From Clostridiaceae bacterium (GTDB lineage Bacteria > Bacillota > Clostridia > TANB77 > CAG-508): a stretch of 37,955 bases of DNA. The notes beneath the pieces are model-generated. The model searched no databases. It was not told the origin of the DNA and was given only the letters and a program-made list of their open reading frames with translations. The DNA is taken from positions 1 through 37,955 of the forward strand of contig JAAZCX010000036.1 of NCBI GenBank assembly GCA_012513065.1. The letters are read 5' to 3'. Positions 7,751 to 37,815 of this stretch are shown here, piece after piece (the first letter of the stretch is position 1; each line of letters begins with the position of its first letter). A program made the position numbers and the translations under genes.

Positions 7751-10204
7751 TTATTTAATTATAATTTTTCCTTCTTCATTAATTGTTAATATAGTTTTTT
7801 TGTTAGGTTTTATTTTTCCATCTAATATTAATTCTGCAACCTTATCTTCAATCATATTTTGAATAGTTCTTTTTAATGGTCGAGCTCCATAATTGTTATT
7901 AACACCTTTTTCAATTACTTTATCTTTAACAACTTCTTCTATTTCAATCTTTATATTTTGTTTTTCCATACGATTAATAAGTTGTTTTATCATAATATCT
8001 ACTATTTGTTTCATTTCTTCTTGTTGTAATTTATGAAATACAATTATTTCGTCTATACGATTTATAAATTCTGGTCTAAACTGTTTCTTCAATTCTGACA
8101 TTACATCTTTTTTTATGTTTTCATATTCTTGTTTATTTTCAGAATTTTTTTCCGATGCACTTGTAAATCCTAGTGTTTTCTTGTCTGTAATTAATCTTGC
8201 TCCTACATTAGATGTCATTATTATAATTGTATTTTTAAAATTAACTGTTCTTCCATTACTATCTGTTAGTCTTCCATCATCTAATATTTGTAGTAGCATA
8301 TTCATGACGTCTGGATGTGCTTTTTCTATTTCATCAAACAAAATAACTGAATATGGATTTCTACGTATCTTCTCTGTTAACTGTCCACCTTCATCATATC
8401 CTACATATCCTGGAGGTGAACCTATTAATTTTGAAATAGAGTGTCCCTCCATATATTCTGACATATCTATTCTTATAATATTTTCATCATTTCCAAATAA
8501 GCTTTCTGCTAATGCTTTAGATAATTCTGTTTTTCCAACTCCTGTAGGACCTAAGAATAAAAATGATCCTATTGGTCTATTCGGATCTTTTAATCCTACT
8601 CTTCCTCTACGAATAGCTTTTGATACCGCTTCAACTGCTTCATTCTGTCCTATAACTCTTTCATGTAACATTTTTTCTAAGTTTTTTAACTTTTCATTTT
8701 CATCTTGAGTTAATTTTTTTACTGGAATTTTAGTCCAATTACTAATTACCTCTGCAATATCTTCTTGCGTTAATGTTATTATTTCTTTACTATTTTTATT
8801 TTTCCATTTTTGTTTTTCTTTTTCTAGCTTTTCTTTGCTTATATGTTGTTTATCTCTTAATACTGCAGCTTTTTCAAAATCCTGAGCTCTTATTGCCTCT
8901 TCTTTTTCTTTTTCAATTGAATCTAATTCTTCTTCCAATAGTTTTAAATTATTAGGTTGTGTATATGCTTTCATTCTAACTTTTGATGATGCTTCATCAA
9001 TCAAATCTATAGCTTTATCTGGTAAAAATCTATCGTTGATATATCTTGTAGATAATTCTACTGCTGCTTTTATTGCTTCTTCTGATATTTTTACATTATG
9101 ATGAGCTTCATATTTATCTCTGATTCCCTCTAATATTTTTATAGTATCTTCCATATTAGGTTCTGTAACTGTTACAGGACTAAATCTTCTTTCTAATGCA
9201 CTATCTTTTTCAATATATTTGCGATATTCATTTAATGTTGTTGCTCCTATTAATTGAATTTCACCCCTTGCAAGTAATGGTTTTAATATATTTGCAGCAT
9301 CTACTGCACCTTCTGCTGAACCAGCACCTACTATAATATGAATTTCATCAATAAAAAGTATTACATCTCCAGCCTTTTTTACTTCACTTAAGCATTTTTT
9401 TATTCTATCTTCAAAATCTCCTCTATATTTTGCTCCTGCTACCATGCTAGATATATCTAGTGTTACAACTCTCTTTCCTTTTAATTGTTCTGGAATATCC
9501 TCTGCTATTATTTTTTCTGCCAAACCTTCTACAACTGCAGTTTTACCAACTCCAGGCTCTCCTATTAAACATGGATTATTTTTCATTCTTCTAGACAAAA
9601 TTTGAATTACTCTTTCTATTTCTTCTTTTCTTCCTATAACAGGATCCAACTTTCCATCTGCTGCCTGTTTTGTTAAATCTGTTCCATATTGATTTAATGT
9701 CTGTGTTTGATTGTAACTACCTATTGTTTTTGTACTTGCTGATCTTTTATTTGTTTCGTTCCCAATTTCATCTTCATTAATAACTTTTATAATTTCATTA
9801 TATACTCTTTGTGGATTTATGTTTAAATCTAATAATATATGAACAGCTACACTGTCAGTTTCTCTCATTATTCCAATTAATAAATGTTCTGTGCCTATAA
9901 AATCTGACCCTATTTTTTTTGCTTCTCTATATGCATTTTCTATAACTCTTTTTGTCCTAGGAGTAAATCCTATTATTTCTTCTTTAATATTTTCATTATT
10001 TTTTCCTACTAAAATATTAATTTCTTCTTCTACTTGTTGTTCAGTAATATCCTGATTTTTTATTACTTTACTTGCTACTCCAGAACCTTCTTTTATTAAT
10101 CCATATAATAAATGTTCAGTACCAATATAATTATGTCCAAAACTAATTGCTATTTCGTTTGCTATCTCAATAGCTTTTTCTGCTCTTTTTGTAAATTTAT
10201 ACAT
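7751..10204 (-). CDS. clpC: Class III stress AAA+ ATPase ClpC
   Basis: Two Clp_N repeats, Walker A GEPGVGKTA and GPTGVGKTE, UVR motif (EEAIRAQDFEKAAVLRDKQ), ClpB/C C-domain. Confidence 0.95.
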   Translation of the reverse strand: MYKFTKRAEKAIEIANEIAISFGHNYIGTEHLLYGLIKEGSGVASKVIKNQDITEQQVEEEINILVGKNNENIKEEIIGFTPRTKRVIENAYREAKKIGSDFIGTEHLLIGIMRETDSVAVHILLDLNINPQRVYNEIIKVINEDEIGNETNKRSASTKTIGSYNQTQTLNQYGTDLTKQAADGKLDPVIGRKEEIERVIQILSRRMKNNPCLIGEPGVGKTAVVEGLAEKIIAEDIPEQLKGKRVVTLDISSMVAGAKYRGDFEDRIKKCLSEVKKAGDVILFIDEIHIIVGAGSAEGAVDAANILKPLLARGEIQLIGATTLNEYRKYIEKDSALERRFSPVTVTEPNMEDTIKILEGIRDKYEAHHNVKISEEAIKAAVELSTRYINDRFLPDKAIDLIDEASSKVRMKAYTQPNNLKLLEEELDSIEKEKEEAIRAQDFEKAAVLRDKQHISKEKLEKEKQKWKNKNSKEIITLTQEDIAEVISNWTKIPVKKLTQDENEKLKNLEKMLHERVIGQNEAVEAVSKAIRRGRVGLKDPNRPIGSFLFLGPTGVGKTELSKALAESLFGNDENIIRIDMSEYMEGHSISKLIGSPPGYVGYDEGGQLTEKIRRNPYSVILFDEIEKAHPDVMNMLLQILDDGRLTDSNGRTVNFKNTIIIMTSNVGARLITDKKTLGFTSASEKNSENKQEYENIKKDVMSELKKQFRPEFINRIDEIIVFHKLQQEEMKQIVDIMIKQLINRMEKQNIKIEIEEVVKDKVIEKGVNNNYGARPLKRTIQNMIEDKVAELILDGKIKPNKKTILTINEEGKIIIK

Positions 10205-31107: not shown

Positions 31108-31195
31108 GCAGATGTGGCGGAACTGGCAGACGCACAGGACTTAAAATCCTGCGGTTGAATAAACCGTGCCGGTTCGATTCCGGCCATCTGCACCA
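31108..31195 (+). tRNA. tRNA-Leu (anticodon UAA), CCA encoded
   Basis: GCAGATG...CATCTGC-A-CCA acceptor; anticodon arm CAGGA-CTTAAAA-TCCTG; long class II variable arm; T arm GCCGG-TTCGATT-CCGGC. Confidence 0.95.
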
Positions 31196-31252
31196 ATAAA
31201 TAGCAATTTTTAAGAGATTTCAACAGAACTCAAGAAAATTCTAAAATGGTTA

Positions 31253-31420: not shown

Positions 31421-31936
31421 ATGGAATTTATACCTTATTGTGCAGAAGAAGCATTCCAATTTTGTTTCTATCAAATTCCAAAAGAACTATTTACAAATAA
31501 AAATTATAAAGGAAAATTAAGTTCAGATGCAATAATATTATATAGTTTATTGCTAGATAGATTATCAATATCTATTAAAAACAAATGGATAGATGATGAA
31601 GGACTTATATATCTAATTCTTACAAGAAAAGAAGCTCAAGAAAAGCTAAACATTTCAGATAAAACAGTAACTAAAGCTTTTAGACAATTAGAAGAACTTA
31701 AGTTAATAAGTGAAAAAAGAATAGGTAAAGGAAAAACATATAAAATATATGTCGGAAAAATTAATCGTAAAATTTACGATTTAAGTACCGGAAATTTTAC
31801 GACTGAACTACCGGAAAAAGTACGACATAGTAAGAATAATAATATTTATAATAAAAATAGTAAGAATAATGATTTTGATAAAAGAGATTATAAAGATTTA
31901 TCATTTTTATATGCAAACAATGATTGGAATAAATAA
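31421..31936 (+). CDS. RepA_N-type replication initiator-like protein
   Basis: FCFYQIPKELFTNKNYKGKLSSDAIILYSLLLDRLSISIKNKWIDDEGLIYLILTRKEAQEKLNISDKTVTKAFRQLEELKLI. Confidence 0.82.
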   Translation: MEFIPYCAEEAFQFCFYQIPKELFTNKNYKGKLSSDAIILYSLLLDRLSISIKNKWIDDEGLIYLILTRKEAQEKLNISDKTVTKAFRQLEELKLISEKRIGKGKTYKIYVGKINRKIYDLSTGNFTTELPEKVRHSKNNNIYNKNSKNNDFDKRDYKDLSFLYANNDWNK

Positions 31937-31942
31937 TAAAAA

Positions 31943-32314
31943 TTGAATGGAGAATTTAGAATGAATATTGAATATACAAAATATGGAGATTATTATTTGC
32001 CAAATTTAGTAGCACCACAAAATATGAGAGGTTTCAAGTTAGGAAAATATGGAAAATTAAGATTAAATTATTTGAAAGAAAATAAAAGAGCAGAATATAT
32101 GATTTTGCTTATGAACAATAAATTGCAACAACATTTAATGGAAATAGATAAATCAGCTAATAGAAGATATGAAATTTTAATAAGGCAACTTACTGAAAAA
32201 GAAAATATTACTGAAGAATTAAAAACAAACAATCAAATGGAATGGATTGGCAAAATGAATTATATTAAAAATTGTGCTGAAGAAATTATATTTAATGAAT
32301 TAATTTATGTATAG
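31943..32314 (+). CDS. TnpV-like transposon-encoded protein
   Basis: YTKYGDYYLPNL...GKYGKLRLNYLKENKRAEYMILLMNNKLQQHL; likely start MNIEYTKYG. Confidence 0.75.
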   Translation: MNGEFRMNIEYTKYGDYYLPNLVAPQNMRGFKLGKYGKLRLNYLKENKRAEYMILLMNNKLQQHLMEIDKSANRRYEILIRQLTEKENITEELKTNNQMEWIGKMNYIKNCAEEIIFNELIYV

Positions 32315-32790: not shown

Positions 32791-33102
32791 ATGAGAAATA
32801 GAACAATAAAAAAACAAGTTTGGTTAAATGAAAACGAAGAAAAGTTATTAAAAGAAAAATGTTATAACGGATTAATAAGTGAATCAGATTTTTTTAGAAG
32901 ATGTATTACAAATAAAAATTTAAAAGAAAAACCAGATGAAGAATTTTACAACATATTGCAAAATTTAAATAAAATTGGAACTAATATAAATCAAGTTGCA
33001 AAGAAAGCAAATATTTATGGAATTGTAGACACTTATAAATTCGACAAATGTTATAGAGAAATTTTAGATATGAAATTAAAGTTAGAGCGAAAATATTTGT
33101 AG
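32791..33102 (+). CDS. MobC-like relaxosome protein
   Basis: VWLNENEEKLLKEKCYNGLISESDFFRRCI...NILQNLNKIGTNINQVAKKAN; GGAGG RBS; next to relaxase. Confidence 0.85.
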   Translation: MRNRTIKKQVWLNENEEKLLKEKCYNGLISESDFFRRCITNKNLKEKPDEEFYNILQNLNKIGTNINQVAKKANIYGIVDTYKFDKCYREILDMKLKLERKYL

Positions 33103-33114
33103 GAGGTTTTGCAT

Positions 33115-34428
33115 TTGGCAGTGACAGATTTAAGTCCAATAAAAACTGGAAAAATTAAAAGTGTAATTGATTATGATATGAATCCATTAAAAACAAAAGA
33201 TAAATTATATGTGTCAGGAATAAATTGTATTCCTGACATTGCTTATGATGAAATGATGATTGTAAAAAATGGTTACGGAAAGACTGATAGAATTATAGGA
33301 TTCCACGGATACCAGTCATTTGAAACAGGAGAAGTAAGTCCAGAGATAGCTCATGAAATAGGTGTAAAATTGGCACAGGAATTATGGGGAGATAGATTTC
33401 AAGTTATTGTTTCAACACATATTAATACTGACAATATTCATAATCACTTTTGTTTAAATTCTGTATCATTTAAAGATGGTAAAAAATATTATTGGAATAA
33501 AGCTGAAAAATTCAATATGAGAAAGGCTTCAGATATTCTTTGCAGTGATTATGGATTATCTGTATTGAATGAACGAAATAGTAATAGAACTAATGCTTTT
33601 GCAGATAAATATGCAAATAGCAATAAAACTTTAATTGAAATAAAGCAGGATATAGATTATGCAATTTATATGAGTAATAATTATAATGATTTTAGAATGT
33701 ATATGAAAAACATGGGATATAAATTAATTGATTATGGTGTAAAATTTAGTATTTCTTGCGAATTCTTGAAAAGAAATATACGACCTGAAAGGAGATTTGG
33801 AAAAGATTATAGTTTGGAAAGAATTAGACAGAGAATACGAGAAGAAAAAGGTATATTATATAATTCTAGTTATTTAAAAAGTGGTGTTAATAAACATTTT
33901 GTTTCAAAGGTTTATAAGGATTATAAATATAAAAACAAACGAGAACCTAGTTTATTTGAGATTTTGTTTGAGTTTATAATATTTGTCACTATGGGAATTG
34001 ATTTAACTAAAAAAGGTAATTTCAAAGCAATAAAGCATAAATTATCTAAAGATCAGAAAAAGGCAGTAAAGATAATGGAAAAATATTCGGATGAAAATAA
34101 AATGATAGCCCAATATAAGATTATTTCTTTTGAAGATTTAGAAAGTATTAAAGAAACGAAGCAAGCTGAATTATCTAAGTTAAAAAGTGAAAGAGAAGAA
34201 TTGCAAAGAGAAAATCGAAAGAATATTCCTGAAGAAAAGAAAAATGAAAATATTAATTTGATTGAAAAATTAAGTGTTGATATTAAAGAAGTTGGTAGAT
34301 TGGTGTATTTGTGTAATGATATGTTATTTGTTAGGAATAAAATTAAGGTTGAAAGAGAATTGTATTTAATTCAAAAGGATGAAATTGAAAAACAGAACAA
34401 AGAAAAGAATAGAAAATATGAAAGATGA
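33115..34428 (+). CDS. MobA/VirD2-like relaxase (probable TTG start)
   Basis: AVTDLSPIKTGKIKSVIDYDMNPLKT, YVSGINCIPDIAYDEM, HGYQSF, VIVSTHINTDNIHNHFCLNSVSFKDGKKY (HxH...N HNH signature). Confidence 0.93.
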   Translation: MAVTDLSPIKTGKIKSVIDYDMNPLKTKDKLYVSGINCIPDIAYDEMMIVKNGYGKTDRIIGFHGYQSFETGEVSPEIAHEIGVKLAQELWGDRFQVIVSTHINTDNIHNHFCLNSVSFKDGKKYYWNKAEKFNMRKASDILCSDYGLSVLNERNSNRTNAFADKYANSNKTLIEIKQDIDYAIYMSNNYNDFRMYMKNMGYKLIDYGVKFSISCEFLKRNIRPERRFGKDYSLERIRQRIREEKGILYNSSYLKSGVNKHFVSKVYKDYKYKNKREPSLFEILFEFIIFVTMGIDLTKKGNFKAIKHKLSKDQKKAVKIMEKYSDENKMIAQYKIISFEDLESIKETKQAELSKLKSEREELQRENRKNIPEEKKNENINLIEKLSVDIKEVGRLVYLCNDMLFVRNKIKVERELYLIQKDEIEKQNKEKNRKYER

Positions 34429-34457
34429 CGAATTTGTATTTGATAAAATTGAAAAAA

Positions 34458-34482
34458 CTGAGGTCTAAAAAATAGACCTCAG
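34458..34482 (-). terminator. Intrinsic terminator of the minus-strand cargo operon
   Basis: CTGAGGTCTA-AAAAA-TAGACCTCAG, followed on minus by TTTTTT. Confidence 0.82.
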
Positions 34483-34489
34483 CTAAAAA

Positions 34490-35578
34490 TTATTTCAAAG
34501 TTTCAGTATACATTTTAAAATATTGTGTTAATGCATTCTTAAATGTATCTGATAGGATAATTTCGCCATGCAATTTCATAATTGCATAGTTATAATTGTC
34601 TAAAACAGGTTTGATTTTGTACAATTCATTCCACGAGCCATACCTCAAATATTCTTTACTAGTGTATTTCAACATTTTAGGACTATAAGTGATATCGCGA
34701 CAATGACCATGAACAACAACATTGGATGTATGATAAGCTTCAAAGAGTTCTAAAACTAAAGGTGTCTCAGAAGACGGCATATTTTCACCAGACCATTCTA
34801 CACAATGATTTTTCCATGTGTGAATGAGTGTCAAATGCTCTCTAGAAAGATTTCCCAAAGAAGATCCAGTTGAAGTAATTAATATACCTTCTGGAATGCG
34901 TTTTGCAATGAATCCAGCAACTCCATTTGAATATTGATTATCCTGAATATATTTTCCCGTCTTAAAAAATTCAGGATAATATAAATCAATGATTTTCTGC
35001 ATATTATAGTTTACTTTTTTTCCAAAATATCTGATTTTAGAATATTTGTGACAAACACTATCTAAAATTTTTTCCCAAGGAGCCATAGTAATTTTTTCTA
35101 GAATGCCATCATCATTGTATACATATTCAGGATAAATAATAGAGATATTCCCAAATGAAAGGATTTTATTGAAGTTTTCCTTTGTAATTGGATGGTTAAA
35201 GTATCCCTGATTCATTGATGGAGCTATAATAATATATTTTCCTTTTCCTATAGCCTCATGTAAAATCGATAATGGGTAATTATCAGCAATTCCGTTTGCA
35301 ATTTTTGAAAAAGTATTAAATGTACACGGTGCAATAATTACAATATCTTCCTCAGGAATTCTATCATCAGCTGAAATATGATTAAAAGTATATTCTCTTT
35401 TTATCCGATAGTCCTCCAACAACGATAAATCCATAATTGAGCAACTCATTTCTGTTGGCATCACAATACAAGTAGCACCTTCATTACTCAAGTCATCCAA
35501 AAGATTTTTAACATTTTTAGACTTTGTTGCACCAGTTGTAATAAGATAAATTACTTTACCTTCTAACACAATAATCAC
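34490..35578 (-). CDS. Two-domain protein: HFCD/CoaC-like flavoprotein fused to class II aldolase/adducin-like domain
   Basis: Flavoprotein: FNHISADD...VIIAPCTFNTFSKIANGIADN...IIIAPSMNQGYFNHPITKEN. Aldolase-like: ILITSTGSSLGNLSREHLTLI...MPSSETPLVLELFEAYHTSNVVVHGH...IMKLHGEII. GTG start at 35578 or 35569. Confidence 0.8.
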   Translation of the reverse strand: MIIVLEGKVIYLITTGATKSKNVKNLLDDLSNEGATCIVMPTEMSCSIMDLSLLEDYRIKREYTFNHISADDRIPEEDIVIIAPCTFNTFSKIANGIADNYPLSILHEAIGKGKYIIIAPSMNQGYFNHPITKENFNKILSFGNISIIYPEYVYNDDGILEKITMAPWEKILDSVCHKYSKIRYFGKKVNYNMQKIIDLYYPEFFKTGKYIQDNQYSNGVAGFIAKRIPEGILITSTGSSLGNLSREHLTLIHTWKNHCVEWSGENMPSSETPLVLELFEAYHTSNVVVHGHCRDITYSPKMLKYTSKEYLRYGSWNELYKIKPVLDNYNYAIMKLHGEIILSDTFKNALTQYFKMYTETLK

Positions 35579-35584
35579 CTCCTA

Positions 35585-36058
35585 CTAGAAATTGTATCTC
35601 CGATACAATTCATAAGCAATAGCAGATACGGCAACAGGTAATGTTAAAAAGTCAACTTTAGATTTATCCATTGGCAATTTAACAGTTGTATCTAACATAG
35701 CCTGTTTTACATCTGTTAAACCAGATGTTTCTGTACCGAAAACAACAACAATATCTTGACTTTCTGGTAAATTTAAATCGTAAAAAATTTTGTTAGTGTT
35801 TCCAGATGTTCCAATTAGATATTTTCCTTTGCTTTTTAAATCAGCAATAGCTTCTTCAAAGGTTTCATAATGTATTTCGGTGATTTTTTCAGTAATATTC
35901 CAAGATTTTACTTTACTTTGAATCTTTGGAAGATTAAAAGGAATTGAGTTCTTTCCAGCCGTATATATTACACAATCAATTGCATTCGCAATCTGAATAA
36001 TATGTGCAATATCATAGGGTGACCGAATTGTGTCAAACAATAATTCAACTTTTTTCAT
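35585..36058 (-). CDS. SPOUT (TrmH/SpoU-like) RNA methyltransferase-family protein with altered motifs
   Basis: LLFDTIRSPYDIAHIIQIANAID (motif 1-like), VVVFGTETSGLT (motif 2), VKLPM...VDFLTLPVAVSAIAYELYRR (motif 3-like). Confidence 0.82.
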   Translation of the reverse strand: MKKVELLFDTIRSPYDIAHIIQIANAIDCVIYTAGKNSIPFNLPKIQSKVKSWNITEKITEIHYETFEEAIADLKSKGKYLIGTSGNTNKIFYDLNLPESQDIVVVFGTETSGLTDVKQAMLDTTVKLPMDKSKVDFLTLPVAVSAIAYELYRRYNF

Positions 36059-36079
36059 AGTAATACCGCCTTTCAGTAA

Positions 36080-36787
36080 TTAAAGTTTTTGAGTTACTAA
36101 AATAAATGGATCAGAAGTAATCTTTATATTGATACTTCCAAAAGCATTTTTAATGCAATCTTCATCTTTGGATGAATAATCTTGAATAAATGGATAGCTT
36201 TTTACTACATTTAACAAATCTGTTATTTTTGTAAAGGTTCGTTCAATGTAGTATGTTTCTAAACTTATAAGATGCATATGTTCTCTTTCTAATTTTTCAA
36301 CATAAAATGTTGGAATTCTAGAACGAATAAGTCGTTCTGGAAAAAGAGTTGCAATTTCGACTAATCCTTTCCCTGTACCATATTCCCTAAATATAAAGTA
36401 TCCATTAGGTTTTAATACTCTAAATATTTCGCAAGAGCTAAATCTAGTTACATTCTTTGCTGTAATAATATCAAATGAAGAATCGTCGAATGGCAAATGA
36501 GTATTATCTCCTTTCACAATAAGTGCAGTTCCGTTTAAATTTTTGTTTGCTTCTTTTATCATTGCCTCGGAATTGTCTAAACCAACAAGATTACAACTAA
36601 AGTTGCATTTTTCTTTTATTTGACTTAAAACAAAACCATTTCCAGTTCCAATGTCTAATACATTATCATCCTCCTTTAATAATGAAATAATTTTCCGAAA
36701 GAACAAGTCATTTATATTAATTTCTTGTTCAATGGGTGCTGTACTTACAGAATTTCTTATGCTTACTACTTTTTCGTCATAAAACAT
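36080..36787 (-). CDS. Class I SAM-dependent methyltransferase
   Basis: NVLDIGTGNGFVLSQI, LVGLDNSEAMIKEA, LPFDDSSFDIITAKNV, RVLKPNGYFIFREYG; start MFYDEK with AGAGGTG RBS. Confidence 0.9.
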   Translation of the reverse strand: MFYDEKVVSIRNSVSTAPIEQEININDLFFRKIISLLKEDDNVLDIGTGNGFVLSQIKEKCNFSCNLVGLDNSEAMIKEANKNLNGTALIVKGDNTHLPFDDSSFDIITAKNVTRFSSCEIFRVLKPNGYFIFREYGTGKGLVEIATLFPERLIRSRIPTFYVEKLEREHMHLISLETYYIERTFTKITDLLNVVKSYPFIQDYSSKDEDCIKNAFGSINIKITSDPFILVTQKL

Positions 36788-36821
36788 AATTATCACCTCT
36801 TTTATAAGTTTTACGAATACT

Positions 36822-36850
36822 ATTCTATCATATTATGTAAATTATGTCAA
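36822..36850 (-). promoter_or_regulatory. Sigma-A-type promoter of the three-gene cargo operon
   Basis: Minus strand TTGACA-17 bp-TAGAAT. Confidence 0.78.
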
Positions 36851-36855
36851 TATAA

Positions 36856-36886
36856 ACAAAGGCGATGCATTATACATCGCCTTTGT
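36856..36886 (-). terminator. Intrinsic terminator of the 36890..37693 methyltransferase gene
   Basis: AAACAAAGGCGATG-CATTATA-CATCGCCTTTGTTT-like stem. Confidence 0.82.
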
Positions 36887-36889
36887 TTA

Positions 36890-37693
36890 TCATTTTTTGC
36901 AACTAATTAGCAGAATTTCAGAGCCAACATCAAATATTTCTACAGATTCAAAACCACTATTTAAGATTGCTGCCTGTACCCAATCCAAATTTTTCTGTGT
37001 TTCAACATTGGAACATTCCTTTGTAGAGGGGTTATAGATACCTTTAATAATAGTTCTAGAACCATTAGAAAGGTCAATATAACCATTAGAAATAGAAAAA
37101 ATCACAATTCCATAAGGTTTCAAACTCTTATAAGCCTTCTTTACGATAACATCCAAATCATTTCCTGCACAATATGCAGCTCTTAAATTAAGATAGATAT
37201 CATAATAATTATGCTTGGGTTCAAAAGAATCCATTGACTGACAAAAAAAGTTAATCCTTGGGAATAATTCTTTCCCGTTTTTCACAGCTGTCTTAGATAT
37301 TTCAACAACATCAAATTCAATATCATTGAATCCATTAAAAATCTGAAATAATTCAGAACCATTATTAGAGCCTACAGCTAAAACTTTGCAATTAGTCAAA
37401 CAAGATTTATATTCTCTAATTTTTGAAAGGAACTGAGTATTCCAATTTGGGCATTCTAAACGATAATCATTTTGATAGTTATATGTCCCATATTTTTTGT
37501 TAAAAGCATGATCTCTTGCTTGTTTAGCCAATCTAAATACTTGTAATTTTTGAGATGGAGGAAGATTTTTGGTCCATCTTTTTACTTCATCATCAAAAAA
37601 TTTTGTTGTATCAAATTCTACATTGTAACCATGATTCCGCATAAATTCTTCTACAAGTTCCTTAATGCTAATTTCATACCAATTTTTACTCAT
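36890..37693 (-). CDS. Class I SAM-dependent methyltransferase with helical N-terminal extension
   Basis: CKVLAVGSNNGSELFQIF, FDVVEISKTAVKNGKELFP, SLKPYGIVIFSISNG; start MSKNWYE with AAAGGTGG RBS. Confidence 0.82.
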   Translation of the reverse strand: MSKNWYEISIKELVEEFMRNHGYNVEFDTTKFFDDEVKRWTKNLPPSQKLQVFRLAKQARDHAFNKKYGTYNYQNDYRLECPNWNTQFLSKIREYKSCLTNCKVLAVGSNNGSELFQIFNGFNDIEFDVVEISKTAVKNGKELFPRINFFCQSMDSFEPKHNYYDIYLNLRAAYCAGNDLDVIVKKAYKSLKPYGIVIFSISNGYIDLSNGSRTIIKGIYNPSTKECSNVETQKNLDWVQAAILNSGFESVEIFDVGSEILLISCKK

Positions 37694-37719
37694 ATAAATT
37701 CCACCTTTCAGTTGTGTTA

Positions 37720-37761
37720 GATAGTTAATAATTAAATTAATCAATTTAATTATTAACTATC
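37720..37761. promoter_or_regulatory. 19-bp perfect inverted repeat in the 5' leader of the 36890..37693 methyltransferase
   Basis: GATAGTTAATAATTAAATT-aatc-AATTTAATTATTAACTATC, between predicted promoter and RBS. Confidence 0.8.
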
Positions 37762-37786
37762 CGTTTTTCTGCTAAGTTGCGAACAT

Positions 37787-37815
37787 ATTATATCATAAAA
37801 AAACAAAACAGTAAA
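37787..37815 (-). promoter_or_regulatory. Sigma-A-type promoter for the 36890..37693 methyltransferase
   Basis: Minus strand TTTACT-17 bp-TATAAT. Confidence 0.65.

Follow-up and report, generated by a model that had tools for sequence, protein, structure and literature searches.

A conserved gene cassette pairing an altered SPOUT protein with a flavoprotein–aldolase fusion appears to move between distant bacteria

The cysteine decarboxylases of the HFCD flavoprotein family depend on two functional residues, a catalytic His and the Asn of a PxMN motif. SPOUT proteins, for their part, are described as modifiers of RNA, apart from one that modifies protein (PMC9508554); in the 2'-O-ribose methyltransferases among them an Arg, a Ser and an Asn have catalytic roles (PMC12123411), and the active site of the superfamily is not universally conserved between families (PMC1829167). 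Here we describe a locus in which both folds occur together. The window analysed is the whole of contig C59 (37,955 bases), from a Clostridiaceae genome of 1.27 Mb in 77 contigs. Four of its minus-strand genes encode a SPOUT protein, a fusion of flavoprotein and aldolase (FAl) and the class I methyltransferases MTA and MTB; MTA, SPOUT and FAl are the core trio of a cassette that has probably spread by horizontal transfer and probably synthesizes or tailors a small molecule. The four open reading frames (ORFs), placed by a first-pass annotation made from the letters alone, are real and their coordinates correct:

34490..35578, minus strand: FAl, flavoprotein–aldolase fusion (PF02441 over residues 10-176 and PF00596, residues 204-298 matched; predicted model with a pLDDT of 91)
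35585..36058, minus strand: SPOUT-fold protein of 157 aa with replaced active-site residues D16, Q22, F137 and T139 (Pfam SpoU_methylase)
36080..36796, minus strand: MTA (methyltransferase A), class I methyltransferase (Pfam Methyltransf_11/31)
36890..37744, minus strand: MTB (methyltransferase B), class I methyltransferase with an N-terminal extension (Pfam Methyltransf_25, only slightly over the cut-off)

Because of their homologues and ribosome-binding sites, the true starts are likely ATG 36787 for MTA and ATG 37693 for MTB.

The cassette is conserved, occurring in gut Clostridia as well as in very small Patescibacteria, and is not a single-strain oddity. Among 388 genomes of the order, one other carrier (L003) turned up, with homologues of all four window genes. 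When 85,462 species genomes were scanned by pattern, full-length FAl appeared at 13 loci (L004-L016), distributed over Clostridia, Saccharibacteria, Paceibacterota, Moraniibacteriota, other Patescibacteria and a single Bacteroidetes bin; the taxonomy of all loci is that given in the record titles of metagenome-assembled genomes. Two further, divergent Patescibacteria loci came from a profile search. L015 and L003 are one locus, and 16 FAl loci are counted, the window included; L017-L027, which match the flavoprotein half only, were left out of membership. The three core genes stand together in 14 of these 16 loci, and in 11 of the 16 they keep the exact MTA-SPOUT-FAl order and strand. No MTA was seen at the L006 locus and no SPOUT gene at L016, nor genome-wide at the cut-off used; the Bacteroidetes genome has the cassette without SPOUT. 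Conservation of the gene set in 15 loci besides the window places it beyond chance, and the position of several carriers on long contigs (142-456 kb) argues against binning artefacts. The first-pass annotation would have been refuted by homologues that never co-occur outside this strain; they do co-occur, and across distant lineages. No characterised gene set matching the cluster was found, and a literature search returned no description of it, an absence from the literature searched that does not prove novelty.

The cassette is also rare, being present in roughly 0.3–1% of the genomes sampled: 2/388 in the order, 5/380 Patescibacteria, 1/396 Bacteroidota and 1/399 in the phylum, tallies that are upper estimates because some sampled genomes were already known positives. 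FAl of the window is 70% identical to that of L004/L005 (Clostridia), 57-58% to that of L008/L006 (Paceibacterota/Moranbacteria) and 45-46% to that of L003, from a genome of the window's own order. In trees of FAl and SPOUT the window clusters with L004/L005, and the closest sequences beyond these are those of bacterium E14 and Paceibacterota; the grouping does not follow taxonomy, several of the deeper forks have poor support, and L003 sits on a long branch. Copies nearer to Paceibacterota than to a genome of the same order point to horizontal transfer, with which the rarity and patchiness of the cassette agree; it appears, from these sequence comparisons, to pass as one block between distantly related bacteria. 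Searches of plasmid and phage proteins returned single-domain flavoprotein or methyltransferase matches only, with no full-length FAl, and viral contigs contained no SPOUT variant, no full FAl and distant radical SAM enzymes only.

The predicted FAl structure (mean pLDDT 91) has two domains that separately match PPC decarboxylase/EpiD and L-fuculose-1-phosphate aldolase, the N-terminal half being nearest to EpiD and other peptidyl-cysteine decarboxylases. The description of this half as decarboxylase-like applies to the fold alone: the segment bearing the catalytic His of cysteine decarboxylases is a gap in the alignment to the AtHAL3 profile, and the position of the PxMN Asn varies (N, G, D, A or S), which together make ordinary cysteine decarboxylation by FAl unlikely. 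The second half is, as first described, a metal-dependent aldolase-like domain by its fold and its three metal-binding histidines (H290, H292 and H337), which are invariant in 16/16 loci. The catalytic acid E271 is kept in 15/16 (D in L106), and an SSE motif precedes the metal site in 14/16.

The SPOUT protein is a single bare domain with no RNA-binding extension. In a Foldseek search, its predicted model (pLDDT 86) is best matched by RlmB and AviRb, with TM-scores of 0.76-0.80 by query length; TrmH was also matched. Q22, F137 and T139 occupy the positions of the catalytic Arg (motif 1), Ser and Asn (motif 3) and are invariant in 15/15 sequences; with D16 at the motif-1 Asn position, D, Q, F and T form an invariant replacement set. 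Thus the SPOUT fold originally assigned to this protein is kept, and the catalytic residues of RNA ribose methyltransferases are not. Since SPOUT families share no universal active site, the loss of a ribose-type site leaves other methylation possible.

The four genes form a real cluster, as first thought, although the full pathway would draw on lineage-specific partners outside the window. Eight Patescibacteria-type loci (L007-L014) also have a radical SAM enzyme and a methyltransferase, which form a divergent pair; Clostridia add MTB (window, L003 and L005) and a Nudix protein (L003, L004 and L005), the latter also present in L007 and L016, five loci in all. Both the SPOUT variant and the radical SAM partner were found only in genomes also carrying FAl. 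L003, L016 and L107 have in common a TrxB-like pyridine-nucleotide oxidoreductase, in whose alignment the usual CxxC cannot be seen, and an unnamed protein of ~190 aa (L003 9375-10001, L016 1260-1799, L107 8145-8696). The latter has no Pfam, NCBIfam or credible PDB match; its reading by eye as a nucleoside-hydrolase/SLOG-type Rossmann protein is unsupported by Pfam and PDB profile searches, and a weak match to botulinum neurotoxin is due to chance. At one Patescibacteria locus a zeta-toxin-like P-loop kinase lies directly 3' of MTA (L106 11849-12694). Genes flanking the Patescibacteria loci (pilin, MacB-type ABC exporter, H+-pyrophosphatase and other unrelated genes) show no common theme, and mad3/mad8 matches among them include ordinary ABC ATPases.

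Distant relatives of MTB on Streptomyces plasmids adjoin nucleoside-deoxyribosyltransferase, uracil-DNA-glycosylase and Nudix genes, which weakly hints that the substrates are nucleosides. It is worth noting that these linear plasmids (L126 11416-22150; L127 7398-15452) combine the MTB-like methyltransferase, a UDG-family protein and a nucleoside deoxyribosyltransferase (annotated in L126) with an AMP-binding protein, two ketoacyl synthases and a thioesterase/hydrolase, possibly another unusual nucleoside-linked pathway.

The metabolic enzyme classes, the intact metal site and an altered SPOUT site without RNA-binding extension favour small-molecule biosynthesis or tailoring, as do the absent precursor peptide and the absent significant defence matches considered below. 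In the scheme that we propose, whose order of steps we infer, the two class I methyltransferases would methylate a small substrate, probably one that is phosphorylated or has a sugar moiety. The first half of FAl, presumably with flavin mononucleotide (FMN) bound, would perform a redox or lyase step, and the product could be channelled to the second half, whose putative metal-dependent site would act as an aldolase, epimerase or dehydratase. The SPOUT protein, having departed from ribose methylation, may bind S-adenosylmethionine (SAM) or a SAM-like ligand and either catalyse another reaction or play a regulatory role. Further steps might be supplied by the radical SAM enzyme and methyltransferase in Patescibacteria, by Nudix and MTB in Clostridia and by the pyridine-nucleotide oxidoreductase elsewhere. 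More tentatively, and as a possibility to which we give rather less credence, this may be an undescribed pathway that Clostridia, ultra-small Patescibacteria and Bacteroidetes share through horizontal transfer, one whose SPOUT protein no longer methylates RNA and acts together with a new FMN-flavoprotein/aldolase fusion on a small molecule.

Several points weigh against such a metabolic role. The analysis yielded no product, substrate or transporter, and across the loci neither an exporter nor a resistance gene accompanies the cassette consistently. SPOUT proteins being known almost solely as RNA modifiers (PMC9508554), an RNA or protein target is possible. Because the radical SAM, Nudix and MTB partners are not universal, the core may suffice for a single reaction of its own, or the products might differ between lineages.

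The same predominance of RNA among SPOUT targets would suit a module in which the SPOUT protein and the class I methyltransferases act on tRNA or rRNA and FAl installs or prepares a group, with altered translation or antibiotic tolerance as the outcome. The nearness of the fold to RlmB, TrmH and the avilamycin-resistance protein AviRb agrees with this, and an active site that differs among families (PMC1829167) makes base methylation possible despite the loss of the Arg. We nevertheless regard such a module as unlikely, given the invariant Q, F and T in place of Arg, Ser and Asn, the bare SPOUT domain, flavoprotein, aldolase and radical SAM partners that are unusual for RNA methylation, and a cassette too rare for a housekeeping modification; the resistance role raised in the first-pass annotation is not supported. 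Another reading is a role in anti-phage defence or conflict, with an antiviral nucleotide made or processed by a viperin-like radical SAM enzyme together with Nudix and methyltransferases. The radical SAM partner matches pVip models (7e-27) and has viperin and cytosylglucuronate decarboxylase among its best PDB matches by phmmer; Nudix is present in five loci, and distant MTB relatives adjoin the Streptomyces nucleoside genes described above. However, the radical SAM enzyme scores higher with a mycofactocin maturase model (5e-35), reaches none of the curated cut-offs shown, and is found neither in the window nor in the Clostridia loci. Moreover, the window proteins match only generic methyltransferases in PADLOC, flanking genes form no clear defence island, and neither FAl nor the SPOUT variant was found in viral contigs, nor in full length in phage or plasmid records. 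With no significant defence-library match past generic methyltransferase and radical SAM similarity, the suggested defence role is improbable.

Still less probable is a cluster for a ribosomally synthesized and post-translationally modified peptide (RiPP), matured by the EpiD-like flavoprotein, a radical SAM maturase and the methyltransferases. The kinship of the FAl N-terminal half with peptidyl-cysteine decarboxylases would fit, as would conserved Cys at the C-terminus of the radical SAM partner that seem reminiscent of SPASM/twitch enzymes, but the catalytic His region is missing from FAl and its Asn is not conserved, and we know of no role for an aldolase domain in RiPPs. Across distant loci, a search for precursor peptides found no conserved short ORF preceded by a ribosome-binding site; conservation was confined to the near-identical pair L010/L011, and thus no conserved precursor gene was found nearby. 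Small-molecule synthesis or tailoring remains the reading we prefer.

At the window locus the cassette follows, on the opposite strand, a relaxase, from which the first-pass annotation had taken it for mobile-element cargo. The relaxase, a MobC protein and an attachment-type repeat bear this out:

31108..31195, plus strand: tRNA-Leu (TAA), integration target (tRNA detection)
31140..31196, plus strand: presumed left attachment site, the 3' part of tRNA-Leu (with a further copy on the distal side of inserts in G331, G101, G257 and G125)
31421..31936, plus strand: RepA_N replication initiator-like protein (PF06970)
31943..32314, plus strand: TnpV (PF14198)
32791..33102, plus strand: MobC/NikA-like accessory mobilisation protein (family-model match)
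33109..34428, plus strand: MobA/VirD2-type relaxase of the carrier element (PF03432, 7.7e-36)

In these four congeners the 3' part of tRNA-Leu recurs at 94-100% identity beyond inserts of 3-10 kb, as repeats of 56-72 bp (L122-L125). This makes tRNA-Leu(TAA) an integration hotspot at which the window element is probably inserted, and the window cassette is, to judge from the sequence, carried by a small mobilisable element in tRNA-Leu. All four congener inserts differ in cargo, and three of the four have integrase-type and mobilisation-type proteins, as judged by eye; Fic-like and HNH-like proteins were also recognized by eye among the cargo of such inserts in the genus. The left repeat, relaxase and MobC are present; the contig ends before the right side of the element, and it contains neither a right repeat nor an integrase.

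The transcription signals first read around the four genes are likewise present, including a well-placed shared promoter for the trio, a terminator after FAl and, for MTB, a promoter, palindromic leader and terminator of its own:

34456..34484, minus strand: intrinsic terminator 3' of FAl (sequence scan)
36822..36850, minus strand: promoter of MTA-SPOUT-FAl (TTGACA-17-TAGAAT, TG before the -10, 11/12 consensus)
36852..36890, no strand assigned: inverted repeat or terminator ending MTB, 19 pairs (sequence scan)
37720..37761, no strand assigned: palindrome in the MTB leader with 21-bp arms and one mismatch, a putative operator or hairpin
37787..37815, minus strand: promoter of MTB (10/12 consensus)

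Promoter-like matches in the region number 34, against 30 expected from shuffles, and show no excess; the trio promoter is therefore assigned by position and quality, not by statistics. The palindrome of the MTB leader is 42 bp long, near-perfect and AT-rich. L005 has a smaller one (8109-8129) at the equivalent intergenic position, and none was found there in L003. In Saccharibacteria the MTA leader contains a conserved stretch, TTAATCGTTTTTTAATA...AAGCGTATTTC (L010 8700-8775, L012 4920-4997, L013 and L014), with no Rfam match; an Rfam scan returned only tRNAs and sub-threshold matches.

Gene order ties FAl to a SPOUT family whose active site is different and fixed, and this allows a test of whether small-molecule chemistry is within reach of the knot fold. 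The cassette is also a rare conserved candidate for a metabolite made by Patescibacteria of 0.7–1.1 Mb, whose exchanges with their hosts are largely unknown. Compared with described systems, the window element resembles integrative mobilisable elements in tRNA genes in its relaxase, MobC, RepA_N and tRNA-Leu repeat, as in the four congeners, and differs in its cargo and in that the contig contains neither its right end nor an integrase. The Patescibacteria radical SAM partner, which is not in the window, shares the CxxxCxxC core and GGEP with viperin, the cytosylglucuronate decarboxylase BlsE and mycofactocin MftC, but belongs to a distinct family with an extra conserved C-terminal Cys. FAl has the fold and the NT-x-x-KIAxGIADN FMN-site region of HFCD flavoproteins (PPC decarboxylase AtHAL3/CoaC, EpiD, MrsD and TvaF), yet lacks their catalytic-His segment, varies at the PxMN Asn and has an aldolase as partner domain instead of CoaB. 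That domain shares its fold, three metal histidines and SSE motif with the class II aldolase/epimerase family (L-fuculose-1-phosphate aldolase, YgbL/OtnC and MtnB), from which it is set apart by scores far under every curated cut-off, by its fusion behind a flavoprotein and, in the window, by Phe at the position of FucA Asn29. Lastly, the SPOUT protein has the fold of the SpoU/TrmH methyltransferases (RlmB, AviRb and TrmL) and, in most members, their GxExxGL and PM motifs, but it is a lone domain in which Q, F and T stand in place of Arg, Ser and Asn.

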